This document shows, one piece after another, positions 8,312 through 32,799 of a stretch of 64,000 nt of DNA. This DNA comes from a virus. The notes beneath the pieces are model-generated. The model had not been told where the DNA came from and did not search any database. It saw only the letters and a program-made list of their open reading frames with translations. The stretch spans positions 1-64,000 of the IMG/VR virus record IMGVR_UViG_3300044712_001034; one strand, written 5' to 3'. Positions within the stretch are counted from its first letter, which is position 1, and each line of letters starts with the position of its first letter. Both the position numbers and the translations under genes were made by a program.

Positions 8312-8346
8312 AAAGATCCGGATTTAATCCGGATCTTTTTATTTAA
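8312..8346 (+). terminator. Terminator module 10 with TATTTAA element
   Basis: AAAGATCCGGAT/ATCCGGATCTTT, loop TTA, T-run, TATTTAA at 8340-8346. The Shine-Dalgarno AAAGGAG follows almost at once, the shortest leader of the series. Confidence 0.85.
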
Positions 8347-8543: not shown

Positions 8544-8966
8544 ATGATCGAAAATTATGAATTATCTTCTTATTCAGCAGAGTCAATTAAACCATATTTC
8601 ACTAGTATTACTAATGAAAATGTTAATCTTATAAGACATAATTCCACATTAGCTAATGGAATTCAAATTACTAATTCTGACATATTCTCTATTATTATTA
8701 ATCAATTTCCGAGTAATTGTGGAATTGTAGTATTTTCTGATTTATCTATTAGATTTGGTAAAGATAAAAATACTTTATTTGAATGTTTAGAAAAATTAGT
8801 TTATGATATGGGATTTACTGTAGTTATGTATACTACTTTAAATCAATCACGTTATGAAAGTTTACATGAAACTTTAAAATCTAGGGGTTATAAAACTTTA
8901 GAAGAATTTGATAATCATCGGACAGATAATCATAATTTTATTTGGTTTAAAAGTCTTAGGAGTTAA
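8544..8966 (+). CDS. Hypothetical protein, possible GNAT-like acetyltransferase, 140 aa
   Basis: AAGGAG precedes the ATG. The C-terminal third (about residues 92-135: a beta strand, then ESLHETLKSRGYKT) has the strand-helix-strand pattern seen at the end of GNAT acetyltransferases, but I cannot see a clear acetyl-CoA P-loop. It sits directly before an amidoligase. Published surveys of amidoligase operons (Iyer, Aravind and colleagues) describe acetyltransferase-fold partners, which makes this reading attractive but not proven. Confidence 0.4.
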   Translation: MIENYELSSYSAESIKPYFTSITNENVNLIRHNSTLANGIQITNSDIFSIIINQFPSNCGIVVFSDLSIRFGKDKNTLFECLEKLVYDMGFTVVMYTTLNQSRYESLHETLKSRGYKTLEEFDNHRTDNHNFIWFKSLRS

Positions 8967-8968
8967 TT

Positions 8969-10162
8969 ATGACTGAAGAAATAGATGATTTTCCACCAGA
9001 AGAAGAAGAAAGAGAAAGAGAAGAAAGAAATAGACCAAGTTGGTTAGATAATAATCCTTTTGGAGTAGGGAGAAGGAATAATAATATGAGAAGTACTGTA
9101 TTAGATTCTTTCGGATTGGAGGTGGAAGTAGAAAAAATTCCACCTCGGAATTTAACTAGAGAATTAAGAAATTATTCTTGGCAAGAAGAACATGACGCTA
9201 GTGTAGAAACTCCTGCTTTTTTTCCGCAGCGAGAAAGAAATCAAGAACAACAATTAGTTTATTTATCTGAGCAATTAGAAGATACACAATCCGGTGTAAT
9301 TGGTACAGAATATGTATCAGGAATTATGGATATTAATAACCAAGAGCATATTAATTCTATTTATAAGTTATTTGAATTTATTTGTTCTTCTGGTGAACCA
9401 GAAGAAGGAAATAGGGCAGGGATTCATATTCATGTTTCAATGCCTTATAATAAAAATATTCTTTCTTCTTCTGTAAGGTTATTTGGATTTATTGAAGAAT
9501 TAACTTATTATTGGGGAGGGATGGGATATAAATTTAGGGGTTTGGAGAATGATTTTACTTATTGTAGGAGTTTATTTAATCCTGCAATTTGTTACGGAGA
9601 TCCTCCATTTTATTCTTATGATTTTGCAAATCTATTAGACGGATCTAATAAATCTGTAGAGCATTTCTTTGATGCCTACGGAGGAATTAATCCTTCTAAT
9701 CCTCCTGGGAAATATAATCCTATGAGATACGGCTGGATTACTTGGTATAATTTAATTACAAAAGGAACATTAGAGCTTAGGGTTTTCAATAAAACTTTAA
9801 ATCCTAATTATGTTATTTCTTCTGTAAAATTCTTCAGGGCTTTATGTGAAAGTATTCTTTTAGATAAAGTACCTGCTGAATTACCAATTAATCCTGTTTA
9901 TAGTGGGAGTAATAAAAGCCAATTGTTTGATGTTTTATATTCTTTACAGAATTTTGTAAATGTTGATCCTAAAACATTTAAAACAATTGCAACAATTATT
10001 GATCGTACTCCTGAAATAAAAGCAGAAAAGAAATTAGTTTATACTCATTTGAATCGAGATAGATATACTCCGCAGTTTAAATACTATAAGAAAAACTGTG
10101 TAAAATCAAATGAAGTAAAAACTCCAAATTTCGTAGATATTCACACTATTACAGGACGGTAA
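8969..10162 (+). CDS. Amidoligase family protein (Amidoligase_2-like), 397 aa
   Basis: The core shows the signature of the glutamine-synthetase-fold amidoligases: FGLEVEVE (48-55, metal-binding Glu residues), HDAS (75-78), GTEYVSG (112-118), GIHIHVS (151-157) and GTLELRVF (266-273). These enzymes are predicted to form amide bonds between a carboxylate and an amine using ATP. An acidic, Arg/Glu-rich N-terminal tail (1-40) precedes the domain and is not part of the fold. It is followed within 4 nt by a class II glutamine amidotransferase and an ATP-grasp gene, the typical partners. The substrate is unknown. Confidence 0.85.
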   Translation: MTEEIDDFPPEEEEREREERNRPSWLDNNPFGVGRRNNNMRSTVLDSFGLEVEVEKIPPRNLTRELRNYSWQEEHDASVETPAFFPQRERNQEQQLVYLSEQLEDTQSGVIGTEYVSGIMDINNQEHINSIYKLFEFICSSGEPEEGNRAGIHIHVSMPYNKNILSSSVRLFGFIEELTYYWGGMGYKFRGLENDFTYCRSLFNPAICYGDPPFYSYDFANLLDGSNKSVEHFFDAYGGINPSNPPGKYNPMRYGWITWYNLITKGTLELRVFNKTLNPNYVISSVKFFRALCESILLDKVPAELPINPVYSGSNKSQLFDVLYSLQNFVNVDPKTFKTIATIIDRTPEIKAEKKLVYTHLNRDRYTPQFKYYKKNCVKSNEVKTPNFVDIHTITGR

Positions 10163-10165
10163 TTT

Positions 10166-11359
10166 ATGTGCCAATTAACCTTTAGTCATTTGAAAAGTAT
10201 TAAAGCAAATTCTCTTTATGTTTATACTCAATGGATAGAAAATACTAAAACCTCAAATAAAGATGGATTTGGTCTTTTGTGTAATGGAAAAGATCTGTAC
10301 AAAAGTAAAAATGATGTACAATCCATTACTAATTTTGGGGAGTATTTTACTAGCAGAATTAAAACTGCTGATCCAATTATTGCCCACGTAAGATTAGCTA
10401 CGTGGGTAAATGGAAAGAAAACAATTGAATCGGAATCCTCTCATCCTTTTGAAGGAGATAAATTAATTCTAGCGCATAATGGAGTGCTAGAATTTAAAGA
10501 TATAAAAATGATGGATAATCATAAGGATGCTACGGTAGATTCAATTATCTTTCTTAGGGAATTAGAAAAACTTTATGACGGTAGAAATTTTCCAGAAGCT
10601 TTATCAAAAGCTATGGAATTATTTAATGGTACGTTTGCTTTTCTAATTTACTCTAAATTAGAAAATTGCTACTATGTAGCACGAGGTAAAACAAAGAAAC
10701 TAAATATCTCGTATACAAAATCAATTGCAAAATCAGAAAATGTTTATCCTGGATTAGTTTTAAATACTGATCGTTTAGATTTAGAAAGGGCTTTGAAAAC
10801 ATATAAAGTTATTGGAGAAATTGCTACAGGATTTAAATTTGAATACACTAGTCCTGTAGAAATCCAACCAGAAACTATTTTTAAAGTAATATTGGACGAG
10901 GGATTATTAGAAAAGGTTGGGGAAATAAAGGAGACAGAAAAAGACAAAAATTTTTTTACGAGAGAACCAAGTACCTTTGGGAATTGGAGGACGACGAATT
11001 CGCAGATCCCAGATATTATTATTAATTCCTCTAATTCTTCTCTTGTCAAGAAGTTAACAAGTTTTTTAAAGAAATATGGTTTGACTTATTACGAATTTGA
11101 TTGCATGATTAATGAAATGACAGGAGGATGTTTATTAGGAGAAGAATTAACAATTATTGATTTGCTAATTGATACATTTGAAGAAAATATGGGAAGTCAT
11201 TTTTCAGATAAAAAGAAAGAAGTCTGGAATGAATTGACAAAGGGATTTGATAATCCTATGTTTGTTTATAATTTATTTGATGAATTGAAATTCCCATATA
11301 TGATGAATAGTAAAAAGGATTTAGATTCTGCTTTGAGAGAAAGGAAACGGACAGTATGA
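10166..11359 (+). CDS. Class II glutamine amidotransferase (Ntn hydrolase), 397 aa
   Basis: The protein begins Met-Cys, so Cys2 becomes the N-terminal nucleophile after Met removal, as in GlmS and PurF glutaminase domains. Other fold markers are DGFG (33-36), AHVR (73-76), SHPF (92-95) and AHNGVL (103-108). The glutaminase domain spans roughly 1-230; a C-terminal extension of about 150 residues is unrecognised. No synthase domain is fused, so released ammonia, or a glutamyl group, is probably handed to a partner ligase. It overlaps the downstream ATP-grasp gene by 4 nt. Confidence 0.85.
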   Translation: MCQLTFSHLKSIKANSLYVYTQWIENTKTSNKDGFGLLCNGKDLYKSKNDVQSITNFGEYFTSRIKTADPIIAHVRLATWVNGKKTIESESSHPFEGDKLILAHNGVLEFKDIKMMDNHKDATVDSIIFLRELEKLYDGRNFPEALSKAMELFNGTFAFLIYSKLENCYYVARGKTKKLNISYTKSIAKSENVYPGLVLNTDRLDLERALKTYKVIGEIATGFKFEYTSPVEIQPETIFKVILDEGLLEKVGEIKETEKDKNFFTREPSTFGNWRTTNSQIPDIIINSSNSSLVKKLTSFLKKYGLTYYEFDCMINEMTGGCLLGEELTIIDLLIDTFEENMGSHFSDKKKEVWNELTKGFDNPMFVYNLFDELKFPYMMNSKKDLDSALRERKRTV

Positions 11360-12111
11360 AAAAGATTTTAGTTTCTTCTAATATTTTTCCTTCTTGTCGT
11401 TTAATTCGTGATGCTATTGAAAAGCTAACGAATAAAAAATTCTTTATGACTGATAATCCAGAAAGGGTAAAAGATGTATTATTTCGCTACGGCAATACTG
11501 GTAATATTATAGGTACTGATTCTAATTTCAATAGTACCGATTTTATTTCCCTTTTATCTGATAAGCGCAAGTTTAGTAATTTCTGCAAGGATAATGGAAT
11601 CTACTCTCCTATTTTTTATACGATTGATACCAAACCAGAAAAATATCCAATTTTAGTTAGGAAAACATTAACTGGTTTTGGTGGTAAAGGAATTATATTC
11701 TGTAATAATGAAGAAGAATATAATTCTGTAATGACTCGTTATTATTGGTGGACACCTTTCATAAAATGTTCTTATGAAATTAGAGTCCATTTATTCGATA
11801 ATAAAGTTTCTAGAATTTATAAGAAAGTAAAAGAAGGAGAAGATGATTTACCTATTCGTAATTCTGAAAATGGTTATCATTTTTCTTTACAGTCGGAAAA
11901 TTTGGAGAATAAATACAAGAAAGCGCAGGAATTAGCAACTAAACTTGGGGAATTATTTATTCCTCTTGGTGGACATTTTTCAGGATTAGATTTTGGATAT
12001 GATTCTGAAAAGAAAGAATATTTTGTATTTGAAGGAAACTCTGCACCAGGATTATCTTCTATAAATGCAGAAGAATATGCTAAATTCTTCTGTGAAAAAT
12101 TATCTTTGTAA
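11356..12111 (+). CDS. ATP-grasp family carboxylate-amine ligase, 251 aa
   Basis: ATP-grasp features are present. VRKTLTGFGGKG (101-112) is the flexible nucleotide-binding loop, EIRVHLF (141-147) a core strand, GLDFGYD (210-216), and FVFEGNSAPGL (223-233) carries the Mg-binding Glu and Asn. The family activates a carboxylate as acyl-phosphate and joins it to an amine or thiol. The start overlaps the preceding amidotransferase (ATGA), so the two are likely co-translated. It is smaller than typical peptide ligases, as in other phage amidoligase clusters. Substrate unknown. Confidence 0.82.
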   Translation: MKKILVSSNIFPSCRLIRDAIEKLTNKKFFMTDNPERVKDVLFRYGNTGNIIGTDSNFNSTDFISLLSDKRKFSNFCKDNGIYSPIFYTIDTKPEKYPILVRKTLTGFGGKGIIFCNNEEEYNSVMTRYYWWTPFIKCSYEIRVHLFDNKVSRIYKKVKEGEDDLPIRNSENGYHFSLQSENLENKYKKAQELATKLGELFIPLGGHFSGLDFGYDSEKKEYFVFEGNSAPGLSSINAEEYAKFFCEKLSL

Positions 12112-12124
12112 GAGGGATAAATGA

Positions 12125-12901
12125 ATGAATTTTCATGGTCAAATAAGGATTTTCAGCGAGTTGGAGTATTTAATTCCTGCTATGCGGGAAGGACAGAATT
12201 TAAATATTTTAATTCGAGCGCCTAGTGGATATGGAAAAACAAAATTAGCGGTACATATTGCATTATCTGTAGATGAAAATAATTGTGAATTATTTCTAGC
12301 CAATGAAAGATTTGAAGAGTTTTCTTCTGAAAAAAGGATTATTATTATTGATGAAGTTCATTTAATAACTAATCCAGAATTCCTTTATCCGCATATGGAT
12401 AGCGGTAAACATATTTTTATTTTGTGCTCAAATGAATTTGGACAATTAAAAGAACCACTATCTAATCGCTGTATAGATTTAACTTTTGATCTATATTCAG
12501 ATCAGGAAATTGGAGAAATTATATTTGAAGATTTTCAAAGAAATAGCTTTACTCTTTCTGATCCTTTCGTAATTGAAGTAGTTAGAAATAGTAATGGAAT
12601 TCCCAGGACAGCGAGAAATTTAGTAAAAACGCTATCCATGATTTTTAAAATAAAAGGAGTACCAGATTCTATTGAATCTTTACAAGATATTCTAAGAAAT
12701 ACTTTACAATTAGAGGATGGTTTAAATCCTTTACATAGGAGATATTTAGATTATATCCAAAAAGTAGAAAGAGCTTCTTTGGATACTTTAATTTTTGCGA
12801 CTCGATTAGATAAATCTACAATTCTAAGAGAAATCGAGCCGGTATTGATAAATAAAAATCTTATTAGAATTACTTCAAGAGGTCGGGTATGCAACAAATA
12901 A
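12125..12901 (+). CDS. RuvB-like AAA+ ATPase, 258 aa
   Basis: Walker A APSGYGKT (32-39), Walker B IIIIDEVH (72-79), a sensor-1-like SNE (102-104) and a candidate arginine finger SNR (113-115). The C-terminal 60 residues (GLNPLHRRYLDYI through TSRGRV) match the winged-helix end of RuvB branch-migration motors. It starts at ATG 12125; the ATG at 12121 opens a different, short frame. It lies between amidoligase-island genes rather than with recombination genes, so it could be a recombination motor or a remodelling ATPase of the island. Confidence 0.75.
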   Translation: MNFHGQIRIFSELEYLIPAMREGQNLNILIRAPSGYGKTKLAVHIALSVDENNCELFLANERFEEFSSEKRIIIIDEVHLITNPEFLYPHMDSGKHIFILCSNEFGQLKEPLSNRCIDLTFDLYSDQEIGEIIFEDFQRNSFTLSDPFVIEVVRNSNGIPRTARNLVKTLSMIFKIKGVPDSIESLQDILRNTLQLEDGLNPLHRRYLDYIQKVERASLDTLIFATRLDKSTILREIEPVLINKNLIRITSRGRVCNK

Positions 12902-13833
12902 TCAAGGATTATCTTGTTTTTGAAAAATGGGTTCCTGCTCATTATGATTTTGAAAAATTAAAATCTGCGCCTTATATTTTTGCTACTTATCCACCAAATG
13001 TTAATTACACTTGTGTATTAACTAATAATGGAAATATTTTACTTCCTAATTCTAGCCCAGAAATTTCACAAGCTTTAGAAATTGAAAAAGATAGTATTTT
13101 TGAATTAGCCTGTGAAAATACTTTACTTATTTCCTTTTATGAGGATAAACCTGTTATTCTTTATAATTTTGATACAAAAGAAATTACTACTTCTGTTTCA
13201 CAAAAACCTAAAATAGGAGAATCACAACATCTTCTAGCTTTTGGAGATGATTCTTCTCCTGTAAGAATTAATAAATCTAGGCTTTTGGGAGTTTTATTTC
13301 TAAACTTTTCTGCTCAGCTTTTATATGGAGATCTTAGGGAATCTTCTATTCAATTATTGATTGATAGTATTAAATTTGCTGATGGAATTGAATTTACAAA
13401 AGCAGATGAAAGGGAATTAAAGCGTGTAATGTTTCCTGCAGCAGATAATAAACTTAAGTCTACTCAAACAGCAGATTTACATAGGAATTTCAAGAAGATA
13501 TTCAAAAAGAAAATTGATAAAATTATTGACGAACAAGAAAAGAAAAAACCACCAGTAACTCCCCTTTTGCCGTCACCAAAAGAAGATCATGGAGAATATT
13601 TATTTACAGAAGTATTGAAACAAATACCTCATGTAGTAAAAGAAACTCCGGTAATTTTAGATATGGATCTTTCTAGGTACGGAATTAAATCAATTAAGAT
13701 TTATCCTTCTGGAACTTTAATGATTGAAGTTGTAAAATCTGATACTGCTGGAAATACTTTCAATGGTATTAGGGAAAACATTGAAAGTATGTTAGGTCAT
13801 TCTAAATTTGCCCTTCAATTGTTTGATAAATAA
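12889..13833 (+). CDS. Hypothetical protein of the amidoligase island, 314 aa
   Basis: Overlaps the end of the RuvB-like gene by 13 nt. Three parts are visible: an N-terminal beta-rich region (1-110), a helical middle ending in a Lys-rich stretch (about 195-220), and a Pro linker leading to a C-terminal alpha/beta segment. No family recognised. Its position inside the island and tight coupling suggest a dedicated partner of the ATPase. Confidence 0.65.
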   Translation: MQQIIKDYLVFEKWVPAHYDFEKLKSAPYIFATYPPNVNYTCVLTNNGNILLPNSSPEISQALEIEKDSIFELACENTLLISFYEDKPVILYNFDTKEITTSVSQKPKIGESQHLLAFGDDSSPVRINKSRLLGVLFLNFSAQLLYGDLRESSIQLLIDSIKFADGIEFTKADERELKRVMFPAADNKLKSTQTADLHRNFKKIFKKKIDKIIDEQEKKKPPVTPLLPSPKEDHGEYLFTEVLKQIPHVVKETPVILDMDLSRYGIKSIKIYPSGTLMIEVVKSDTAGNTFNGIRENIESMLGHSKFALQLFDK

Positions 13834-13847
13834 AGGAGAAAAATAAA

Positions 13848-14207
13848 ATGATTAAACACAGTTGTGGACGGGAAATCTTTCTTCGCCGAGTTATTAATAT
13901 TACTACTGGATTATCTATAACTCCTCATGGTATTATTCCTACTGGAAAAATGACTTTAAATGGGGAAACTAAATCATATGAATTATATTGTGATAAATGT
14001 GGAACATTAAAATCGGCTAAAGAAATTGATCTGCGCTGTTTTGAATGTGGAAAAGAATTTAAAGCAGACGATTTATTTACTATCGGTAACGCAGGAGGAA
14101 TTTATTGCAAAGAACATGCAGATGAAAATTATCCTGGAATGAGAAAATATAACATTGGTGGAATGATTGATCGTGCTATCAAAAATAAAAATGAAGGAGC
14201 AGAATAA
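13848..14207 (+). CDS. Zinc-binding protein with multiple CxxC pairs, 119 aa
   Basis: AAAGGAG precedes the ATG. Cysteine groups are HSCG near the N-terminus, CDKC (about 49-52), CFEC (about 64-67) and a later CKEH, enough for two zinc sites of ribbon or LIM-like type. It ends in a basic tail. The TAATG overlap couples it to the next gene. Probably a structural or adaptor protein of the island. Confidence 0.6.
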   Translation: MIKHSCGREIFLRRVINITTGLSITPHGIIPTGKMTLNGETKSYELYCDKCGTLKSAKEIDLRCFECGKEFKADDLFTIGNAGGIYCKEHADENYPGMRKYNIGGMIDRAIKNKNEGAE

Positions 14208-14545
14208 TGCCTAACGCTTATTATGAACCAGAAAAACTGGGATTAACAATTTTTGCTGAAATAGAATATTCTAGCAGATGTTATGAATTTGATACAAGAG
14301 TTGTTTGGGAAAATGAAGAAGGAATATTATTTACTGCTAGAGATTCTGGATGTTCTTGTCCTACACCTTTTGAAAATTTTAATTCAATTAGCGATTTAAC
14401 TCTTTTGGATAATATTTCTTGGCTAGAAGAAGAAGTTAATGAAGAATCTGAATATACTACAGCAGAAACTAGACAAGAATTTTTACGTAACATTAGTAAT
14501 AAACTTAACAATCGTTTCTCTAATTCTTTCTTTGTATCTAAATAG
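14207..14545 (+). CDS. Hypothetical protein, 112 aa
   Basis: The TAATG overlap with the zinc protein indicates coupling. The N-terminal half is beta-rich with a CSC motif (about 50-52), the C-terminal half acidic and helical. Unrecognised. Confidence 0.6.
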   Translation: MPNAYYEPEKLGLTIFAEIEYSSRCYEFDTRVVWENEEGILFTARDSGCSCPTPFENFNSISDLTLLDNISWLEEEVNEESEYTTAETRQEFLRNISNKLNNRFSNSFFVSK

Positions 14546-14557
14546 GAGAAATAAATA

Positions 14558-15439
14558 ATGTTTTCTAATAAATATAATCTTTCTTTTGGTACTGATCCGG
14601 AATTCTTTATTGTAGAAGAAAAAGAAGGAAAGGAATGGGGAATTCCTGTTCCGCATTTTATTGAAAATTTAGGCTTTCCTGAAATTGGTTTTGATGAAAC
14701 TAGAAAGCACCCGGTAATTGCAAAAGAAAGTAATTTCAAAATTATTATGGATGGAATTGCTGCAGAAATTAATAATGTTGGTCCCCATAATAATGCAAAA
14801 GATTTTCATAATGCTATTCAAGATTCTATTGCTTGGCTAGATAATTTTGCATCTACTTTTGGTTATAAAGTTTCTACAAAACCAACAGTATTTTATGATT
14901 TCTTTAAATATTATCGAGCCGGAAATAAAGCACTAGAATGGTGTGGAATTTTTGGTTGTGATGCAGATAAAGATGCAATCGAAGAAAATTATAATTCTCC
15001 TGAAATTGATGTAACTACTCATCAAGAAAGATATGGCGGTGGACATTTACATATTTCAGATAATAATCGATTAATTAGGGATTTACCACTTCCTTATATT
15101 CGTTTATTAGCTATGTTCTGCGGAAATTATTCTATTCTAAATTCTCCTTTTCCTGAATTAGAAAAAGCGAGAATGTTTAAATATGGTCAACCCGGAAGAT
15201 TTCGTGTACAAAATTATCCAGATGGAAATATTGGAGTAGAATATCGTAGCCCAAGTAATATTTGGACTACAGATTTATCTGTTATTGAAGGAATGTTTGA
15301 AATGGCAGAAAAAGCATATTGGTATCTTAATAATAAAGATGAAGCAGTTAAAATTCTCGAAAACTATTTATCATTAACAGCGGAAGCTATTCGAGAAGTT
15401 AATAAAGAAAAAGCTGAATATATCCTTTCTAAGATTTAA
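14558..15439 (+). CDS. COOH-NH2 ligase type 2 (phiEco32-like), 293 aa
   Basis: Characteristic motifs are GTDPEFF (11-17), DGIAAEINN (65-73), GCDAD (133-137), GGHLHIS (161-167), a YGQPGRFR loop (209-216) and GVEYRSPS (226-233). These match the phage COOH-NH2 ligase type-2 family first noted in phiEco32-like phages, a glutamine-synthetase-fold relative of the amidoligase at 8969. The conserved Glu and His residues are expected to bind Mg-ATP. TAGGAG precedes the ATG. Having two different amidoligases in one phage suggests sequential or alternative amide-bond steps. Confidence 0.85.
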   Translation: MFSNKYNLSFGTDPEFFIVEEKEGKEWGIPVPHFIENLGFPEIGFDETRKHPVIAKESNFKIIMDGIAAEINNVGPHNNAKDFHNAIQDSIAWLDNFASTFGYKVSTKPTVFYDFFKYYRAGNKALEWCGIFGCDADKDAIEENYNSPEIDVTTHQERYGGGHLHISDNNRLIRDLPLPYIRLLAMFCGNYSILNSPFPELEKARMFKYGQPGRFRVQNYPDGNIGVEYRSPSNIWTTDLSVIEGMFEMAEKAYWYLNNKDEAVKILENYLSLTAEAIREVNKEKAEYILSKI

Positions 15440-15460
15440 TAACTTGCGGTGGAGGAATAA
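15440..15460 (+). promoter_or_regulatory. Repeated leader element, copy 2 (CTTGCGGTGGAGGAATAA)
   Basis: AACTTGCGGTGGAGGAATAA contains the ribosome-binding site (GGAGG) of the amidotransferase at 15467. It shares its frame with the elements at 19241 and 21201. Confidence 0.45.
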
Positions 15461-15466
15461 ATAAAA

Positions 15467-16204
15467 ATGGCACAATCACCTAGAATTATGTATAATGGCG
15501 TAGCAATTGATAATAGTCCAATGGAAATTAATGAAGTTATTGCTAGGTATACTGAAATGACAACTACTGAAAAAGAAAAAATTAAATCCGTAAAAGTTAG
15601 TAAGAAAGCAAAGAAAACTGTTGGTGTAGCATATGGAGCTTTCTTTAGTTGTATTAAAGAATTTATTCCAGATGCTTATTTAATCCGACAAAATACAGAC
15701 ATTCTAAAAACTGATCTGCTTATTTTTACTGGTGGAGAAGATGTTGATCCTGCTTTTTATGGAGAATTAAATACTCGGAGTAATGGAGTAAATCAGCGTA
15801 GGGATCAAATCGAATCAAATTATTTTTCTATTGCAGATGATAGAAATAAAAAGATTGTTGGATTTTGTCGTGGTCATCAATTAATTAATGTAATGAAAGG
15901 TGGAAGTTTATATCAAGATTATCCTTCTGCTGGTTTTGATTATCATCCAGGAATGCATCCATTAGAAATTATGACTCCTAATTCTGTAATTGATCGTTTC
16001 TTTTCTGGAAAAAAGATTGTTTCTGCTCATCATCAAAGTGTAAAAAATATCGGGAGGGATTTAATTGCTACCTCTAGGTATGCAAATACAATTGAATCTT
16101 TAGAAAGTAGTAATATTATTACTACTCAATTTCATCCGGAATTTGAATCTTTACAAGATCAGCATGTAGTAGATTTCTTTAAATTTCTAGTAGAGGAGTG
16201 GTAA
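15467..16204 (+). CDS. Class I glutamine amidotransferase / peptidase C26-like, 245 aa
   Basis: Catalytic triad pattern of class I glutaminases: nucleophile Cys134 in GFCRGHQ (132-138) and His223-x-Glu225 in QFHPEFES. GGEDVDP (89-95) is typical of the peptidase C26 branch, which includes gamma-glutamyl-GABA hydrolase PuuD. It therefore either releases ammonia from glutamine or cuts a gamma-glutamyl bond. In amidoligase clusters such enzymes are thought to supply ammonia or reverse the modification. Last recognised enzyme of the island. Confidence 0.85.
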   Translation: MAQSPRIMYNGVAIDNSPMEINEVIARYTEMTTTEKEKIKSVKVSKKAKKTVGVAYGAFFSCIKEFIPDAYLIRQNTDILKTDLLIFTGGEDVDPAFYGELNTRSNGVNQRRDQIESNYFSIADDRNKKIVGFCRGHQLINVMKGGSLYQDYPSAGFDYHPGMHPLEIMTPNSVIDRFFSGKKIVSAHHQSVKNIGRDLIATSRYANTIESLESSNIITTQFHPEFESLQDQHVVDFFKFLVEEW

Positions 16205-16205
16205 A

Positions 16206-16943
16206 ATGGGACTGTTCTACGGTCATTTTTCTAATGATGAAACTGCTATTAATTACTTTAATAACACAATTAATAGTAGTAGAGATGTAGAAACTCATGG
16301 TTGTTTTGGAGTTATTAATGAAATTTTTCAACCGGATGAATCAAAGCCTTTTTATGTTGGAGAAGATGTAAAGTTAGAAATTGTACAAGCTTTTGCTAAA
16401 GAATTTAATTCTATCTTTAGCAATATTAAAATGCGGGTTGTTTATAATAATACTTTCTATTATCGTAATGATACTTGGAATACCCAATATTCTCCTACTA
16501 AAAAAGATATTCATTTTAAGCCGATAGAATTTACTGCTTTTACTTTAGATTTTGATAAAGAATATACTTCTATTGTAAGAGTTTGTTTTATTACTATTAT
16601 TGGGGAATTGCTTAGGGTTTATAATGAAAACTTTGATATGGTGGATTATAATAAGGATAAGTATATTGTAAAAGATGATTTATATAAAAATTTCATGGAT
16701 AAACTTTTTAGTAAATCCATTGAAATTGATTGGTATAATTACACTGAAGGAAATTCTAATTGTTTTTATAGGAGCACTTCTCTAAAGGAGTTGATGGTTT
16801 TTGATAATCCAAAAGAAATTAATAAGCTTTTGTATTATAATAAAAACGTTAAAACGGATGAAAATTATTATCCACGTGTTTTTCAACTAAACTATACAGA
16901 ATTAATTTCTCCTACTATGACTTTATTTGCTTTGCGAGGTTAA
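16206..16943 (+). CDS. Member 1 of a three-gene paralogous family, 245 aa
   Basis: Unrecognised family. It shares with the next gene and the one at 18272 the core PFYVGxD followed by a helix (FAKEFNSIFSNIKMRVV, about 69-85) and IIGELLRVYN (about 133-142). It begins 2 nt after the amidotransferase stop. Adjacency to the amidoligase island makes it a candidate substrate or effector, but nothing in the sequence proves this. Confidence 0.65.
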   Translation: MGLFYGHFSNDETAINYFNNTINSSRDVETHGCFGVINEIFQPDESKPFYVGEDVKLEIVQAFAKEFNSIFSNIKMRVVYNNTFYYRNDTWNTQYSPTKKDIHFKPIEFTAFTLDFDKEYTSIVRVCFITIIGELLRVYNENFDMVDYNKDKYIVKDDLYKNFMDKLFSKSIEIDWYNYTEGNSNCFYRSTSLKELMVFDNPKEINKLLYYNKNVKTDENYYPRVFQLNYTELISPTMTLFALRG

Positions 16944-16944
16944 T

Positions 16945-17835
16945 ATGTCACATTGGTATGGATCTAATTTTTCTTCTTTAGAAAATACTTATAGAACTAG
17001 TAATATTCCTCCTACAGTTTGGGCATGTTTTGGTGGAGTTTATAAATATTATGTAAAAGGAAAACCTTTTTATGTAGGACAAGTTATTGATAGGGAAATT
17101 GTAGAAAAATTTGCAGAAGAATTTAATTCTATTTACAAGAATATTAATATGCGAGTTGTAAGCTCTTGTAAATATTATAAGATAAGAAATACTTTCTATG
17201 GTAGCGAAACATTCTCTCAATATAAAGCTACAGAAGAATATATTAAACGCTCTACGGATACATTTGATTTTACAGTTTGGACTTTAGATTTTGTTACCGG
17301 ATATGAAGAAATTGTAAAATACGATTTCTTTGTTATTGTAGGAGAATTACTTAGGGTATACAATAAACATTATGATTTTGTTATAAGAGGTTTTACAAAA
17401 GATATTAAAAGTAATTACTTTACTAACGCAGTTAATCTAAGTTTTCAATATAAAAAGAGTTGTGGAGGTAATGCTTTTTATATTGGTGGAAATATTAATC
17501 ATATTCTCCTATTTGATGATATTGAAAAAATCAATGAAATATTAAAAGAAGGAGAATATACTATTAATCATAAAGATTATTGGGTAGCCAGAGCAATTAA
17601 TAATTTTACTAAAATGCCTGCTCCTACACAAACATTACTAATTATTCAGAAAGCTTTGGGAGAAGAAAAAGAAGAAAATAAAAAGTCACAGGAACAACAA
17701 GATATGTTACTGGGACTTTATAAAAATAAACCCAGGAATTATCAAAGGGCCGTAGCAGAAAGAATTTATTATCGAGACGGTAATGGAAGATTTATTTCTA
17801 GGAGACAATATGAACGACTCCACCCAACTACCTGA
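16945..17835 (+). CDS. Member 2 of the paralogous family, 296 aa
   Basis: The start is ATG 16945 (MSHWYG) with GCGAGGT upstream, matching the start of member 3. Shared motifs are VWACFGG, PFYVG, the helix FAEEFNSIYKNINMRVV and VGELLRVYN. It carries a unique C-terminal extension of about 60 residues: Gln/Glu/Lys-rich, then strongly basic (RDGNGRFISRRQYERL). Confidence 0.65.
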   Translation: MSHWYGSNFSSLENTYRTSNIPPTVWACFGGVYKYYVKGKPFYVGQVIDREIVEKFAEEFNSIYKNINMRVVSSCKYYKIRNTFYGSETFSQYKATEEYIKRSTDTFDFTVWTLDFVTGYEEIVKYDFFVIVGELLRVYNKHYDFVIRGFTKDIKSNYFTNAVNLSFQYKKSCGGNAFYIGGNINHILLFDDIEKINEILKEGEYTINHKDYWVARAINNFTKMPAPTQTLLIIQKALGEEKEENKKSQEQQDMLLGLYKNKPRNYQRAVAERIYYRDGNGRFISRRQYERLHPTT

Positions 17836-18070
17836 AATTATAGAAATTATTAGACCAGTAGAAGAAGAAGATCAAATATTTACTATTATAGGAGTTAGAA
17901 ATGATCTAGTTAATAATCCAAATAGATTAGAAGAATTGGCCTGGAAATTAAATGAAAATTTAAAATGCGAGGGAGCATTTATTTTATTATTAAAAGATCC
18001 TAAGTCTATCTTTAATTACTCTTATGATCTTAATTATTATCTAGCTCTATTCATTCAAACCTGGGGATAA
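17810..18070 (+). CDS. Hypothetical protein, 86 aa
   Basis: ATG 17810 is preceded by TAGGAGA, preferable to the in-frame ATG at 17783, and it overlaps member 2 by 26 nt. An acidic alpha/beta protein with no recognised motif. Confidence 0.55.
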   Translation: MNDSTQLPEIIEIIRPVEEEDQIFTIIGVRNDLVNNPNRLEELAWKLNENLKCEGAFILLLKDPKSIFNYSYDLNYYLALFIQTWG

Positions 18071-18072
18071 AA

Positions 18073-18267
18073 ATGCTAATCAATCTAAACGATAAAATTA
18101 TTGTAAACCCTTCTAAGATTATTTATATTAATATGAATAGAAATGGGTCAGGTAAAATAATTAATTTAGAAATTATTACAGAAGAGGGACATCATATTAT
18201 TTTTACTTATCCCGATTCTGATAGTGTTTATAATAAACTAGTTTCTGAAAATATAATTAAGGAGTAA
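18073..18267 (+). CDS. Hypothetical protein, 64 aa
   Basis: Begins 3 nt after the previous stop. A small all-beta protein, possibly an LytTR- or SH3-sized domain, but no motif supports a name. Confidence 0.55.
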   Translation: MLINLNDKIIVNPSKIIYINMNRNGSGKIINLEIITEEGHHIIFTYPDSDSVYNKLVSENIIKE

Positions 18268-18271
18268 GAAT

Positions 18272-19036
18272 ATGTCTCACTGGTATGGTAATTTAAAACC
18301 TGAAAACATTGAAAAATACTTTGTCGATTTAGTAAATTCTAAGCATAAATATCCTTCTGTTTGGGCTTGTTTTGGCGGTATTGGACAAAAGTTTAATTAC
18401 AATACTACTGATCCTTTTTATTTTGGTTTCGATATTGATCCCGTTCTAGCAGAAAGGTTTGTAAAAGATTTTAATAATCGTTATAAAAATATTCAAATTG
18501 AAATTGCTTATTCTGTAAAACTTTATCGTTATACTGATTCTTTTTATGGAGAAATTTATTTCTTGGAAGAACAACCAGATAAAAAATTAGTAACAGAATT
18601 ATCTGGTTGTAAATGCCCACTTTGCCAAAAGAATTTAAACAGACACTTTAAATACTTTACTCTATTTAATATTAAATTTAATGGTTATTCTAAACGAGCA
18701 GAATTTACAATCATTCCTATTATTGGAGAATTGCTAAGGACTTATACTTTCTTTTATGGTCAAAGTTATAATGGAGAATATGTAGCAGAAGTAGCTTATG
18801 ATTATCCAGAAGAATTGTTTATTAAAGCGTGGGAAATAGATCAAGCTAAGCAAAATAATTGTATCCTTAATCCTATGGATATTAAATATATGCTAGCATT
18901 AGATGATGTAGAAAAATATAATTGGTTTCTTGTGTCGGGACATTTAAATAACTATTCATTCACTAGTTTGGTTTATCCCACTAATGTAATGAATGAATGG
19001 TCATATTATTTGAATAGTATTTCTTATAAATTCTAA
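18272..19036 (+). CDS. Member 3 of the paralogous family, 254 aa
   Basis: AAGGAG precedes the ATG. It starts MSHWYGN and keeps VWACFGG, PFYFG, the helix FVKDFNNRYKNI and IIGELLRTY. It has an extra Cys insert (CKCPLC, about residues 113-118) absent from the other two, possibly a metal site. The most diverged copy. Confidence 0.65.
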   Translation: MSHWYGNLKPENIEKYFVDLVNSKHKYPSVWACFGGIGQKFNYNTTDPFYFGFDIDPVLAERFVKDFNNRYKNIQIEIAYSVKLYRYTDSFYGEIYFLEEQPDKKLVTELSGCKCPLCQKNLNRHFKYFTLFNIKFNGYSKRAEFTIIPIIGELLRTYTFFYGQSYNGEYVAEVAYDYPEELFIKAWEIDQAKQNNCILNPMDIKYMLALDDVEKYNWFLVSGHLNNYSFTSLVYPTNVMNEWSYYLNSISYKF

Positions 19037-22009: not shown

Positions 22010-22447
22010 TTATTTTTCTACAAAAACAATTTCTAATCTATCATACAAGAATTTCATCTTACTAACTTCAAGTCCAACAGGAGAATAATCACTTTCAAAA
22101 ATAGAATAATGATACGGAGTCGGATCATATTCTTTATGGTTTTTAGATAAATAATTTTCATCTGTAGATTCCAATAAAGCAAAGAATTGTACAAACCAGG
22201 CCACAAATTCTACCTGTTCTTGTGGACAATTTACTATAGTAATTTTATTATTTAAGAAATGAAATCTTAGATCTAAAGAAACTAATTTTCTTACTAGGTA
22301 TTCAAGTAGCTCTATCTGGTCTGTATAAATTATTTCTAGTTCATCCGTTATGTAATCCCGGATTTGATACAATTCAGCTAGGATACTTGTAGTGGAGTTA
22401 GTGTAATTGGCCTCTTCAATTAACCGGAAAAATTGGGAATTATTCAT
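22010..22447 (-). CDS. Hypothetical protein, 145 aa
   Basis: ATG 22447 overlaps the TGA of the ribonucleotide reductase gene (ATGA), indicating co-translation; an upstream in-frame TTG is less likely. A helical protein with an aromatic C-terminus and no recognised domain. A link to nucleotide reduction is suggested only by coupling. Confidence 0.6.
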   Translation of the reverse strand: MNNSQFFRLIEEANYTNSTTSILAELYQIRDYITDELEIIYTDQIELLEYLVRKLVSLDLRFHFLNNKITIVNCPQEQVEFVAWFVQFFALLESTDENYLSKNHKEYDPTPYHYSIFESDYSPVGLEVSKMKFLYDRLEIVFVEK

Positions 22448-25098
22448 AATGCACAAGTCTCGTTATTACAATATTTATCTCCTACTGATTCTACATCAAA
22501 CATATTTGAGAAATCTAATTGAGATAATTTACTAGATAACTCTTCATACTTTTCTTTAGTTATTTCTTCGTAGGGCATTTGTGGATAAGCACCATAAGAA
22601 ATTTTTGGTAGGAATGAAACAGCTTTTAGTTTGAATTGGAAATAATTCAACGCGTTCTCTACATCTTTTCCCTCTTTCTCTGGATCAAAGGTAACAGTTA
22701 CACTAACAGAATTATCTGCCCAATGTTCTTGTGCAAAACTGGCTAAATTTAACTGTTCCCACATAGAAACATCTTTTAGAGTTCTCATCTTTTCCCCAAG
22801 AGATACAGGGAATTCTACAACTACTGTAGAACTTTCTTGTCCTACCGCAGGTTCTACATTATATCCCGCATCAATTAAAGGTTTTATTAATGGGGAATTA
22901 TAACCTAGCCTTACTCTGCGAATGTAATAATTAGATTCTGGATAATGAACTCCTGGGGTTACTCCAGCTAGTAAAGAAACTGTTCCGGAGGGTTTTGTTG
23001 TAGTTAGTTTTATTGATAAAGGAATTGCAAACCAATCAGAGTACACTTTATCATAATATTTTGCAGTTTTATATCCCTCTTCCATCCAGGTTTCTAATTC
23101 TTTTACTCCTCTATTAGTAACAAATTGCGCTAATCCTGTCATAGATAGCCCAATTCTTCTATTACGTAGCATAATTCTGTTGGATTCCGGCCACTGAGTT
23201 CCTAATAAAGTAACTGTCTTTGCGTAAAGATAAGCATATTTTATTGTAGTTTTAAAATCTTCCAACGTTTCGTGATTAGTTGGGAAGGACTCAACTAGAT
23301 TGCAATTTTCATAAGATTCTAAGGTAATCTCTCCACAATTAGCAGACACAATTCCAGAGCAAAAACCGCTAATAGGAGTAGGATCAGCAATAATATAAGT
23401 GTGTGTATTATCTACAGTACCATTATAAACATCTTCTCTTTCTTCTAGCAGTTTAACAGAAACTACCTTATGATTCTTTCTATAAAATCCACCATCTCTT
23501 CGGAATGGGTAATGAACTCTATTATGTTCTGAATTAGTTAGTAACTCTAGATTAGAAATATCATTATTTAGTTTTGTGAAATCTTTATGATGCAAGATTA
23601 GTTTATCTTTTATCTTTCCGTTATAATATTCCCAAATCATTCTTGCAGCATATTGGTGTTTTGCTTTTCCATCTACCCAACCATGAACACGTATGTGACC
23701 ATCTTTAGGAATAGACATTGAAAAAGCTCTTACAGATTGACCTATTGTTAGATCTTTAGCCATAATTTTATTACCCCGAAAAGTATAGAAATTATGATCT
23801 AAAGTACATTTAACTTTTAGTCCAGAATCGAAAGTAACTTCTACTAATTCTTGATCTTTCCTAGTTAGTCTAGGGCTTCTCATCATACTAATTTCTGGTA
23901 ATTTTGTATCGGGATTCCAAGTGTATACTAAAATATCCTTACCACTTTCTGCTAATTCTTTGAAAGTTTTATCACCCTCATACACAGTAACAATCTTAGT
24001 ATCCCCGGTTACGCAAGGATTGAGTCCTGAAACCCTGAAATCTTTATTATCCTTTTCAGTTTCTTTCATCCTACTATAAAGGCGAGAATTGTTTACCCAA
24101 AAAATTCCGGGTTCTCCATTAATCCTAATACGCCTAGCTATATCTTTATAATCAATACCTGTTTCAGCATAGATAGAGTTATTACTTGCCCAACCGTAAT
24201 CCATTCGATCAGGATTCTTAGTATAATCTTTTAGATCTAGAAAGTCTTCTGTTGGATTTCCTAATGCTAGCTCTGCGGATCTACGAACATTTCCAGCAAT
24301 AACCGCTTTACCAATTAGATTGAACACATCTGTAATAAGTCTAGCAGAAAGAAACTCTCCATTCTTGTTTCCAAGTAATTCTCTAATCTTATCGTGAAGT
24401 TCTTTTAGGGGTTTATAACCAGAAGAAACACCACCAAAAGTTTTGATTGGCGCACCCTCTGGTCTAATTAAAGAATAGTCAAATTCTATTTCATAATTAG
24501 AAGTAAAGTAAGAATCAAGTAAAGCACCAAGAGAAGCTACCCACCCCTCCCTATCATCAGAAATTACTACAGTTAGTTTTCTTTTTCCTGGCTCTTTGAT
24601 TTTTACTTTATTTGCTCCAAGAGTATCAAACCCTACTCCAACACCCAACATTAAAGAATCCATAGCATACATAAAAGGTTTTGAAATATTTTCAGTAATA
24701 CTTATGGTGGAAACGAACGTACAATTATACAGGCTACCTGTTAGTCCTTTCTCCATAATTAAAGGAGTTCCCATAGCCCACAAACTTCTACCTCCCGGAA
24801 GAAATTTAAAATTGAACATTCTATCATACATTTCTTGGGCAGACTTTTGAGCTTTTCCTTGTGACCACTCTAATTCAGAATCTTCTATATATTGTTTCTG
24901 AATAGAATATATGCCTTCTACAACTCTTTTAATTGTTTCCCACCACTGTTCATTTTCCCCGGATTCCTTAATTCTGCTATAAGTCCTTAGAAAAATAAAC
25001 TCTCCCAAACCATTAAATCCAAATGGAGGAACTTTAGTCTTATATTGGGAAAGGAAAGAATCTGTTAGCTTAAACGTACTAGTAATTGGAAATTTCAT
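22444..25098 (-). CDS. nrdJ: Class II (B12-dependent) ribonucleotide reductase with intein, 884 aa
   Basis: Reduces ribonucleotides to deoxyribonucleotides using an adenosylcobalamin-generated thiyl radical. Visible residues are C126 (YNCTF), active-site C588 (NP/CGE after intein removal), its redox partner C599 (YENCNL) and the C-terminal pair C877/C882. The mature enzyme is about 658 aa after removal of a 226-aa intein at residues 362-587. The pattern fits the monomeric RTPR type rather than the dimeric NrdJ. No small subunit (NrdB) is present nearby. Likely supplies dNTPs for phage replication together with the downstream dUTPase and nucleotidase genes. Confidence 0.9.
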   Translation of the reverse strand: MKFPITSTFKLTDSFLSQYKTKVPPFGFNGLGEFIFLRTYSRIKESGENEQWWETIKRVVEGIYSIQKQYIEDSELEWSQGKAQKSAQEMYDRMFNFKFLPGGRSLWAMGTPLIMEKGLTGSLYNCTFVSTISITENISKPFMYAMDSLMLGVGVGFDTLGANKVKIKEPGKRKLTVVISDDREGWVASLGALLDSYFTSNYEIEFDYSLIRPEGAPIKTFGGVSSGYKPLKELHDKIRELLGNKNGEFLSARLITDVFNLIGKAVIAGNVRRSAELALGNPTEDFLDLKDYTKNPDRMDYGWASNNSIYAETGIDYKDIARRIRINGEPGIFWVNNSRLYSRMKETEKDNKDFRVSGLNPCVTGDTKIVTVYEGDKTFKELAESGKDILVYTWNPDTKLPEISMMRSPRLTRKDQELVEVTFDSGLKVKCTLDHNFYTFRGNKIMAKDLTIGQSVRAFSMSIPKDGHIRVHGWVDGKAKHQYAARMIWEYYNGKIKDKLILHHKDFTKLNNDISNLELLTNSEHNRVHYPFRRDGGFYRKNHKVVSVKLLEEREDVYNGTVDNTHTYIIADPTPISGFCSGIVSANCGEITLESYENCNLVESFPTNHETLEDFKTTIKYAYLYAKTVTLLGTQWPESNRIMLRNRRIGLSMTGLAQFVTNRGVKELETWMEEGYKTAKYYDKVYSDWFAIPLSIKLTTTKPSGTVSLLAGVTPGVHYPESNYYIRRVRLGYNSPLIKPLIDAGYNVEPAVGQESSTVVVEFPVSLGEKMRTLKDVSMWEQLNLASFAQEHWADNSVSVTVTFDPEKEGKDVENALNYFQFKLKAVSFLPKISYGAYPQMPYEEITKEKYEELSSKLSQLDFSNMFDVESVGDKYCNNETCAL
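23338..24015 (-). mobile_element. Intein with HNH-type endonuclease region, 226 aa
   Basis: Inserted between Pro361 and the active-site Cys of NPCGE, so the +1 residue is that catalytic Cys. The N-terminal block CVTGDTKI, the TLDH of block B (about intein residues 71-74), VYNGTVDNTHTYI (block F) and a terminal Asn are present. A central HNH-like segment (LILHHKDFTKLNNDISNLELL, with HN further on) indicates a homing endonuclease. The last residues are SAN rather than the usual HN, a non-canonical penultimate residue. Confidence 0.88.
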
Positions 25099-31454: not shown

Positions 31455-31478
31455 TAAAACTCCTTTTCTAAAGATTAG

Positions 31479-31551
31479 CGGAGGCGTACAGAATCGAACT
31501 GCAATTTCCTGATCCAGAGTCAAGCGTCTTTGTCCGTTAGACCACGCCCCT
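31479..31551 (-). tRNA. tRNA-Gln(CTG)
   Basis: Anticodon loop CTCTGGA on a 5-bp stem, T-arm TGCAG/CTGTA with loop TTCGATT, D-stem GTC/GAC. Acceptor AGGGGCG/CGCCTCC leaves an A1-C72 mismatch; discriminator G. CCA is not encoded. C34 restricts it to CAG codons, unexpected for an AT-rich phage. Confidence 0.75.
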
Positions 31552-31555
31552 ATAG

Positions 31556-31626
31556 CAGTAAGGTAGAGACTTGAACTCTAATCAACCATTTTGGAGACGG
31601 TTATTCTACCATTGAACTACCTCACT
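31556..31626 (-). tRNA. tRNA-Trp(CCA)
   Basis: Acceptor AGTGAGG/CCTTACT (one G-T), anticodon stem ACCGT/ATGGT with loop CTCCAAA, T-arm TAGAG/CTCTA with loop TTCAAGT, discriminator G. Confidence 0.85.
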
Positions 31627-31631
31627 ATTTA

Positions 31632-31703
31632 TGGACACATAGGGAGTCGAACCCTAAACTTCTGATTGCAAAACAGATGTGTTCCCGCTAGCACCATGCG
31701 CCC
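31632..31703 (-). tRNA. tRNA-Ala(TGC)
   Basis: Acceptor GGGCGCA/TGTGTCC includes the G3-T70 pair that is the main alanine identity element; discriminator A. The anticodon loop is TTTGCAA with a T-T mismatch at the top of its stem. Confidence 0.8.
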
Positions 31704-31795
31704 TTATTGCATACCCGGCACAGCGGAGTGTTTACGTTGCTTCGGTTTCTTTTAATTACGTTTTCCGTCAACAACCGTCCTTGATAGTACGCCAG
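31704..31795 (-). ncRNA. Unassigned structured segment in the tRNA array
   Basis: A 92-nt gap between tRNA-Ala and tRNA-Ile. The ends pair (GCGTAC with GTATGC, one G-T) and an inner CGGTT/AACCG stem is possible. No anticodon or T-arm is seen. It may be a small stable RNA or a decayed tRNA. Confidence 0.3.
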
Positions 31796-31867
31796 TGGAG
31801 AAAGAAAGAATTGCACTTTCATTACTCGCGTATCAGACGAGTTTCCTATCTGTTGAAAGATTTCTCC
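31796..31867 (-). tRNA. tRNA-Ile(GAT)
   Basis: Acceptor GGAGAAA/TTTCTCC, anticodon stem CTCGT/GCGAG with loop CTGATAC, T-stem GAAAG/CTTTC. The T-loop is TGCAATT, with G instead of T at position 55. Discriminator A. Confidence 0.8.
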
Positions 31868-31870
31868 AAG

Positions 31871-31943
31871 TGATCCTAAGTAGATTCGAACTACCAACCT
31901 CCGGTATGTAACGCCGATGCTCTGACCGTTGAGCTATAGGATC
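31871..31943 (-). tRNA. tRNA-Val(TAC)
   Basis: Acceptor GATCCTA/TAGGATC, D-arm AGCTC..GAGC, anticodon loop GTTACAT, T-arm GTAG TTCGAAT CTAC, discriminator A. The last pair of the anticodon stem (C31-A39) is mismatched. Confidence 0.8.
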
Positions 31944-31947
31944 TTAG

Positions 31948-32019
31948 TGTGATTGAATGATTTTGAAACATTGACCTTCTCATTTTCAGTGAGACGCTCT
32001 ACCTCTGAGCTACAACCAC
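31948..32019 (-). tRNA. tRNA-Phe(GAA)
   Basis: Acceptor GTGGTTG/CAATCAC, anticodon stem TCTCA/TGAGA with loop CTGAAAA, discriminator A. Confidence 0.85.
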
Positions 32020-32023
32020 TTAG

Positions 32024-32097
32024 CCGGGGAAGCAGGATTTGAACCTGTGATCACTCGCTCCCAAAGCGAGGGTGTTACCAAACTGCACTATTCCCCG
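32024..32097 (-). tRNA. tRNA-Pro(TGG)
   Basis: Acceptor CGGGGAA/TTCCCCG, anticodon stem CTCGC/GCGAG with loop TTTGGGA, T-arm CAGG TTCAAAT CCTG. Confidence 0.88.
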
Positions 32098-32100
32098 TAA

Positions 32101-32217
32101 CCGTCTGTAATCAGGCCGCTCTATTACGTAATGTTCATCCAATACAGGACAGGTCAAATGCAATCTGCTGAACCTTACGTTACGTCTTAGTGTCGATAGC
32201 CCTCATTGTACAGACGG
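32101..32217 (-). ncRNA. Structured RNA of unknown function inside the tRNA array
   Basis: A 117-nt segment between tRNA-Pro and tRNA-Asp, closed by a perfect 9-bp stem (CCGTCTGTA/TACAGACGG). Inside, nested pairings can be drawn: AGGGCT with AGCGGCCT, ACGTAA with TTACGT, AGGT with ACCT, and a TCC/GGA hairpin. It lacks a T-arm or anticodon arm. It recalls the stable RNAs of unknown role lying among T4 tRNA genes. Confidence 0.5.
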
Positions 32218-32220
32218 AGG

Positions 32221-32293
32221 CGATCTTAAGGGGACTCGAACCCCTAACCTATTCATCGACAGTGAATTGCTCTAGCCATTGAGCTATAAGACC
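32221..32293 (-). tRNA. tRNA-Asp(GTC)
   Basis: Acceptor GGTCTTA/TAAGATC, anticodon stem ATTCA/TGAAT with loop CTGTCGA, T-arm AGGGG TTCGAGT CCCCT, discriminator G. Confidence 0.88.
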
Positions 32294-32297
32294 AAGG

Positions 32298-32369
32298 CTC
32301 CCCGACCAGGAATCGAACCTAGACCTAGTGGTTAACAGCCACTCGTCCTGCCAATTAGACCATCGGAAA
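32298..32369 (-). tRNA. tRNA-Asn(GTT)
   Basis: Acceptor TTTCCGA/TCGGGGA with two G-T pairs, anticodon stem AGTGG/CCACT with loop CTGTTAA, discriminator G. Confidence 0.85.
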
Positions 32370-32373
32370 ACAA

Positions 32374-32445
32374 GGTGACAAATGAGATTTGAACTCATAA
32401 CATTCTTATCCACAATAAGACGTTCTACCATTGAACTATTGCCAC
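32374..32445 (-). tRNA. tRNA-His(GTG)
   Basis: Acceptor GTGGCAA/TTGTCAC, anticodon stem TCTTA/TAAGA with loop TTGTGGA, discriminator C as expected for tRNA-His. The base before position 1 encodes T rather than G, so the G-1 needed by histidyl-tRNA synthetase is not encoded. Confidence 0.82.
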
Positions 32446-32447
32446 AG

Positions 32448-32514
32448 TTGCGGGGGTGGAAGTCGAATCCACGTTAATAGGTTATGAGCCTAGGGGTTTC
32501 CGAAACTCCCCGCA
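32448..32514 (-). tRNA. tRNA-Met(CAT) with minimal D-arm
   Basis: Acceptor TGCGGGG/CCCCGCA, anticodon loop CTCATAA, T-arm GTGGA TTCGACT TCCAC, discriminator A. At 67 nt it is short: the D-arm is GTTTC-G-GAAAC-like with almost no loop. It could be elongator Met or, if C34 is lysidinylated, a tRNA-Ile for ATA. Confidence 0.7.
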
Positions 32515-32519
32515 GTATT

Positions 32520-32621
32520 TTAATGTAATTCATAATAAGTTAGTAAGATAATTCCAGCAATTAGTAATACTGCTATAATAACGATTACTATTACTTTTAA
32601 TAAACCTTTTAGAATATCCAT
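32520..32621 (-). CDS. Single-span membrane peptide inside the tRNA array, 33 aa
   Basis: A strong TAAGGAG precedes the ATG. Residues 8-29 are one hydrophobic helix after a basic N-terminus. It sits between tRNA-Met and tRNA-Ile(TAT), so it is presumably translated from the same transcript as the tRNAs. Confidence 0.55.
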   Translation of the reverse strand: MDILKGLLKVIVIVIIAVLLIAGIILLTYYELH

Positions 32622-32635
32622 ATTATTCTCCTTAG

Positions 32636-32706
32636 TCCCCGATGATTGAATTGAACAATCTCTAGCGCCTTATAAGAGCGATTTGCTTCCGTTACAACAA
32701 TCGGGG
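32636..32706 (-). tRNA. tRNA-Ile(TAT)
   Basis: Acceptor CCCCGAT/ATCGGGG, anticodon loop CTTATAA on a stem with a 27-43 mismatch, T-arm GATTG TTCAATT CAATC, discriminator A. T34 would read ATA directly, a codon most bacteria read with lysidine-modified tRNA-Ile(CAT). Confidence 0.72.
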
Positions 32707-32711
32707 TTAGG

Positions 32712-32784: not shown

Positions 32785-32799
32785 TTATTCAATTGTTAT

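Follow-up and report, generated by a model that had tools for sequence, protein, structure and literature searches.

Core enzymes of the island

The window analysed here (the whole stretch of 64,000 nucleotides, part of the 94,079-base phage record IMGVR_UViG_3300044712_001034 in IMG/VR) carries at positions 8544-16204 an island of amidoligase and glutaminase genes. It represents a lineage-specific form of the phage amidoligase cassette already known, and its enzyme set is in itself ordinary. The island consists of ten intact open reading frames (ORFs) on the + strand, all co-oriented and overlapping or abutting, in agreement with the initial annotation of a unidirectional, mostly overlapping cluster, and the gene run begins downstream of a strong terminator-like hairpin (Table 1). 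Five of the genes encode the core enzymes, namely two COOH-NH2 ligases of the glutamine-synthetase (GS) fold, a class II glutaminase, an ATP-grasp ligase and a Peptidase_C26 protein; the others encode a RuvB-like AAA+ motor, an orphan protein termed Y, a zinc-ribbon protein and two further proteins, which are named below by their start positions (8544 and 14207).

The phiEco32-like COOH-NH2 ligase (14558) matched phrog_3815 with an E value of 1.5e-25; its score against Pfam PF14395 was 19.4 bits, for a cut-off of 25, and the motifs are kept. Similarly, the Amidoligase_2-type ligase (8969) scored 19.7 bits in Pfam, under the cut-off of 22, but a family profile recovered it; acidic, HxH and ExR motifs are present. 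The profile seeded on this protein grew to 87 sequences from cassette loci. All ten RuvB-type islands described below contain this ligase. The class II glutaminase (10166) gave a profile match and retains Cys2 and HNG, the ATP-grasp ligase (11356) matched phrog_2599 at 4e-14, and the C26 protein (15467) matched Peptidase_C26 at 5e-26, with CRGHQ and HPE present and with weak matches to gamma-glutamyl-CDP-amidate hydrolase and gamma-glutamyl-GABA hydrolase. A sequence motif check found the active-site motifs intact across the island enzymes; for a few relatives the patterns proved too stringent. Profiles and motifs therefore confirm the two GS-fold ligases, the Cys2 class II glutaminase, the ATP-grasp ligase and the C26 glutaminase that had been recognised before.

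Ligases of the GS-fold and ATP-grasp types carry out ATP-driven amide bond formation, class II glutaminases release ammonia from glutamine, and C26 and gamma-glutamylcyclotransferase (GGCT) enzymes remove gamma-glutamyl groups.

Co-occurrence of the core genes in phage cassettes

Scanning viral contigs with an alignment of seven ligase sequences recovered 353 relatives, of which 80 were kept. The census was taken over the viral loci pooled from all scans in which the 14558-type ligase is flanked by 6 kb or more on both sides (n=53). Single-protein scans with the Amidoligase query alone or the Y query alone found no relatives, nor did a scan of genome contigs.

The Amidoligase_2-type ligase, the class II glutaminase and the ATP-grasp ligase accompany the 14558-type ligase in 53/53 well-flanked loci. 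C26 is present in 44 and GGCT in 29 of the 53, and one or the other in 52. The two are negatively associated (Fisher p 0.03, kinship uncorrected, a value that is indicative only because the loci are related), as expected if either enzyme could perform one gamma-glutamyl-removal step. All five enzymes are also carried by the named phages CVT22 and QDWS535. Thus, the core of two amidoligases, ATP-grasp ligase, class II glutaminase and C26 is near-universal wherever the phage 14558-type ligase occurs. The initial annotation had named a lack of co-occurrence in other neighbourhoods as grounds for refutation, and the census overturns that condition; it had also called this copy unusually rich, which does not hold, given these frequencies, the same five enzymes in two named phages and a cassette that has already been published.

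Cassette-type genes have been described in the LUZ24-like phages UFV-P2 and TC6 (PMC3890496, PMC6209634). A study of Pseudoalteromonas phages listed a seven-gene "peptidoglycan modification cassette" in RIO-1, phiEco32, 7-11, PA11, tf, MR299-2, LUZ24, PaP3 and CW02, noted the cassette in many podoviruses and proposed the peptidoglycan role as a prediction (PMC5498523); in phage HP1 the cassette is reported to show immediate (early) expression (PMC7082346). The island very probably belongs to this kind of cassette, and the link to phiEco32-type amidoligase clusters suggested at the outset was correct.

The island shares with the cassettes of phiEco32, LUZ24, PaP3, tf, PA11, RIO-1, PSA-HP1 and CVT22 both amidoligases, the class II glutaminase, the ATP-grasp ligase and C26 and/or GGCT, all co-oriented. 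It differs from them in adding the RuvB-like motor, Y and a separate zinc ribbon, in a glutaminase without the C-terminal zinc ribbon, in a ligase that falls in a separate clade, and in lacking a gene of about 208 aa that is present in 53/84 other loci and never occurs together with the RuvB-like gene. The members of this family of about 208 aa (L064:9978-10604 and those of 52 other loci) usually lie between the COOH-NH2 ligase and the Amidoligase_2 gene.

Cassettes of this kind occur in lytic phages of many hosts, and their product has been predicted but, as far as the accessible literature shows, never determined. The census sharpens the prediction: the four core genes form an obligate set, and nearly all loci add at least one of the two gamma-glutamyl-removing enzymes; therefore, mutation of C26 or GGCT should trap an intermediate.

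RuvB-like motor, protein Y and zinc ribbon in one phage family

A RuvB-like gene lies inside the island in nine further contigs (L008, L087, L088, L089, L091, L093, L101, L104 and L105). The ten RuvB-type ligases group in a single clade (98/96) of the maximum-likelihood tree built from 94 ligases, and no RuvB-like gene was detected near the other 84 cassettes. The usual order is amidoligase, class II glutaminase, ATP-grasp, motor, Y, zinc ribbon, COOH-NH2 ligase and C26, followed by unknown genes; the order is rearranged in L008. In 9/10 islands the reading frame of Y overlaps that of the motor by 4-31 nucleotides. Hence the motor, Y and the stand-alone zinc ribbon are interwoven with the core in one uncultured phage family. 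No description of a RuvA-independent RuvB-like motor interwoven with Y was found in the literature searched. Additional gene copies were seen in two of these loci: a second C26 and a second ATP-grasp-like gene in L104 (4634-10001), and a second, partial class II glutaminase in L089 (5201-5983).

The RuvB-like ATPase and the zinc protein of the initial annotation were both upheld, the former by a RuvB_C match (2.8e-13) and the latter by cysteines conserved in ten phages. The closest solved relatives of the motor are RuvB proteins, followed by clamp-loader ATPases. Aligned to E. coli RuvB, the motor keeps the Walker A and B residues, the arginine finger (R174), the sensor-2 region and the C-terminal winged helix, but it has 258 aa against 336, and the segment forming the RuvA-docking hairpin has 21 residues in E. 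coli RuvB and 1 in all ten phage motors, so that about 20 residues are absent in every relative. RuvA_N gave no match over its cut-off in the record of the window or in 13 related or cassette-bearing records (the L008 record is not among them), and the motor scored 79.9 bits against the NCBIfam RuvB equivalog, whose cut-off is 282. Because the docking hairpin is absent and no RuvA was found, the motor is RuvB-like and stands outside the RuvA-dependent RuvB family. The RuvB-like protein and Y probably constitute a RuvA-independent DNA motor, which shares the operon and is separable from its chemistry.

Sequence homology of Y is firm only between the window and L093 (5e-35); elsewhere a positional counterpart of similar size is found, so that all ten islands have one. 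Its predicted structure was uninterpretable (predicted local distance difference test, pLDDT, of 44), and profile comparison detected no similarity to the family of about 208 aa. The zinc protein is present in all ten islands, with sequence support across most of them; Cys 6, 48, 51, 64 and 67 are invariant across the ten, and His4 and Cys87 nearly so. A C-terminal CxxC...CxxC element occurs in 45/80 other cassette glutaminases and in 0/10 of the RuvB-type ones. Individual similarity matches between the zinc protein and this glutaminase ribbon were not significant, and the distribution fits; the zinc protein may have originated as a glutaminase domain that became detached.

The two remaining proteins of the island fared differently from their earlier descriptions. 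Protein 14207, regarded as dedicated to the cluster, belongs to DUF7574 (1e-23), and no counterpart was found in the other nine RuvB-type islands, which argues for an insertion and not a component. Protein 8544 had been suggested as an acetyltransferase, an identity that finds no support, as neither this protein nor its L093 relative has a GNAT match in Pfam or PHROGs. Relatives were seen only in L093 and, as a weak match lying outside the cassette, in L104; two further cassette-adjacent families gave no significant similarity when compared with it by profile.

Eight of the nine further island-bearing contigs include the terminase, at 46-81% identity to that of the window, and portal and DNA polymerase are shared as well. 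The closest named phage to the window terminase (59795-61351, +) is only 23% identical (Caudovirales GX15bay), and therefore the whole phage family appears uncultured. The contig L102 belongs to the same family (terminase 54-56%) and keeps the motor at 40% identity (region at about 1.6-22.4 kb of the contig), and in its 84.5 kb no COOH-NH2 ligase, Amidoligase_2, ATP-grasp, C26, zinc protein or Y was detected. This phage thus provides a natural comparison for the separate clade of RuvB-type islands, as the motor is apparently kept without the chemistry, and the motor is therefore separable. If L102 is not truncated there, the motor works without the cassette and the zinc protein goes with the cassette. 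The view that the ATPase, Y and the zinc protein are parts of the cluster consequently stands insofar as they recur in nine related islands, and is weakened by their restriction to one phage family and by the motor of L102.

Since the island-bearing phages are one family, the conserved order may reflect descent. The motor, Y and zinc protein could then be accessory genes unrelated to the ligases, an explanation to which we give somewhat less than even odds. The terminase, portal and DNA polymerase shared by relatives with enough sequence speak for it, as does a motor without cassette in L102. On the other hand, the gene order has persisted despite divergence of the ligases far beyond that of the terminase (Amidoligase_2 identity 21-46%), the motor and Y overlap in nearly every island, and the zinc protein, which may be a detached part of the glutaminase, is absent from L102 along with the cassette. 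The case for participation of the motor in amide chemistry is moderate only. It is very unlikely that the motor and Y take an active part in the ligase pathway, a scheme in which a RuvA-independent motor would bring the amide-bond enzymes to a DNA-bound target, nucleoprotein or DNA would be modified with amino-acid or peptide groups, and the adjoining paralogues X1-X3 would be substrates or adaptors.

Proposed function, rival explanations and neighbouring genes

We propose that, at the expense of ATP, the ligases would join carboxylates (of the glutamate or diaminopimelate type) to amines in successive amide bonds. Ammonia supply or glutamine handling would fall to the class II glutaminase, whose detached partner domain would be the zinc ribbon, and the C26 enzyme (GGCT in relatives) would strip a gamma-glutamyl group from an intermediate. 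A cytoplasmic peptide, foremost a peptidoglycan precursor, would be modified early in infection and the wall altered, for example in superinfection exclusion. A cytoplasmic peptide is the likeliest substrate because no hydrophobic or membrane segment was found in any island protein. The best explanation as a whole, with a probability of about 0.5, is a cassette variant that modifies a host peptide via gamma-glutamyl-type intermediates, with a separable motor. We lean towards gamma-glutamyl-type chemistry, and peptidoglycan is put forward tentatively as the target.

Several observations weigh against this explanation. The peptidoglycan substrate rests on a published prediction, and no biochemistry was found in the accessible literature. 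L087 lacks C26 in its contig and GGCT in its locus. The L102 contig may be incomplete, as it measures 84.5 kb and the longest relatives reach 93-97 kb, and the motor lies inside the operon in 10/11 of the family members found, a pattern more in keeping with a functional link than with chance.

In polyamine use by PuuA/PuuD and in the butirosin system of BtrJ/BtrG, gamma-glutamate is added by a GS-fold or ATP-grasp ligase and taken off again by an enzyme of the C26 or GGCT type. There, one ligase serves the step, whereas the island has three ligases and two glutaminases together. By a related scheme the core may make a soluble gamma-glutamyl or peptide metabolite that has no macromolecular target, the glutaminases, C26 and GGCT serving to protect and deprotect it. 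This is a close rival, though on balance unlikely. A gamma-glutamyl-removing enzyme in 52/53 loci is consistent with it, as are the weak hydrolase matches of C26 and the PncB and PrsA genes that adjoin the cassette of Leptolyngbya phage Lbo-JY46, but no recognisable amine-producing or carrier-protein gene could be made out in the families that recur beside the cassette, most of which are unknown families.

GS-fold COOH-NH2 ligases alongside an AAA+ protein also recall pupylation (PafA/Dop with Mpa/ARC). The island differs in that its AAA+ protein is of RuvB type and in its additional ATP-grasp ligase and glutaminases, and no tag protein was recognised in it, although no systematic search for short tag ORFs was made. 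By analogy, a phage or host protein could be tagged by the ligases with amino acids or a peptide and then acted on by the AAA+ protein, with the X paralogues as substrates or adaptors, a more distant rival that we consider improbable. In ten phages a single operon combines GS-fold ligases with an AAA+ gene, and tandem paralogues adjoin the island in 5/10 RuvB-type loci versus 6/84 others (p 0.0016, kinship uncorrected), X1-X3 being the sole tandem paralogue pairs in the whole window. Against tagging, the AAA+ protein has a winged helix of DNA-binding type and is not of ARC/Mpa type, no RuvB-like gene was detected close to 84 of the 94 cassettes in the tree, and the motor stands alone in L102.

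The same paralogues show that the downstream boundary originally drawn at 16204 was too short, since they adjoin the island and recur beside related ones. Tandem paralogues of 240-350 aa beside the cassette lie at 16206-19036 (+) in the window and at L087:10137-13063, L088:14121-16263, L093:12259-13757 and L006:5451-7352; they are fast-evolving and mostly unrelated between phages. The X proteins could be substrates, adaptors or unrelated. Inspection by eye had suggested degenerate amidoligases, which we rejected as profile comparisons were flat and the model had no fold match. Searches of PDB and BFVD with an AlphaFold model of the L093 relative of X2 (pLDDT 77) gave nothing at E <0.001; a 300 aa protein of cr108_1 ranked fifth in BFVD for the X model and was not significant.

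Table 1. Features of the amidoligase island and its edges in the window.
Feature	Position	Strand	Basis or remark
Terminator-like hairpin	8312..8338	+	12 bp stem, T-rich tail; upstream edge of operon
Orphan, 140 aa	8544..8966	+	acetyltransferase identity without support; probably non-core
Amidoligase_2-type GS-fold COOH-NH2 ligase	8969..10162	+	Pfam (sub-cut-off), family profile, motifs
Class II (N-terminal nucleophile, Cys2) glutaminase, without C-terminal zinc ribbon	10166..11359	+	profile match, Cys2 and HNG
ATP-grasp carboxylate-amine ligase	11356..12111	+	phrog_2599
RuvB-like AAA+ motor	12125..12901	+	RuvB_C; Walker A/B, arginine finger, winged helix
Protein Y (12889), orphan	12889..13833	+	13-nucleotide overlap with motor gene
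Zinc-ribbon protein	13848..14207	+	cysteines conserved, ten phages
DUF7574 protein	14207..14545	+	profile match 1e-23
phiEco32-like COOH-NH2 ligase type 2	14558..15439	+	phrog_3815
Peptidase_C26 / class I glutamine amidotransferase (gamma-glutamyl hydrolase-like)	15467..16204	+	profile match
X1, first of three tandem paralogues	16206..16943	+	paralogy
X2, tandem paralogue	16927..17835	+	paralogy
X3, tandem paralogue	18272..19036	+	paralogy

Comparison with the anti-phage defence families of PADLOC gave no island match beyond weak P-loop matches of the motor, and no near-identical DNA was found in named phages. Elsewhere in the window, a ribonucleotide reductase large subunit is encoded at 22444-25098 (-), with an intein-like HNH endonuclease segment between the reductase parts, and 14 tRNA genes are clustered at 31478-33289 (-). 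Sugar-related genes occupy 50335-57768 (+), upstream of the terminase, and include a family 11 glycosyltransferase (50335), a GHMP kinase (55175) and a two-match glycosyltransferase (56542).

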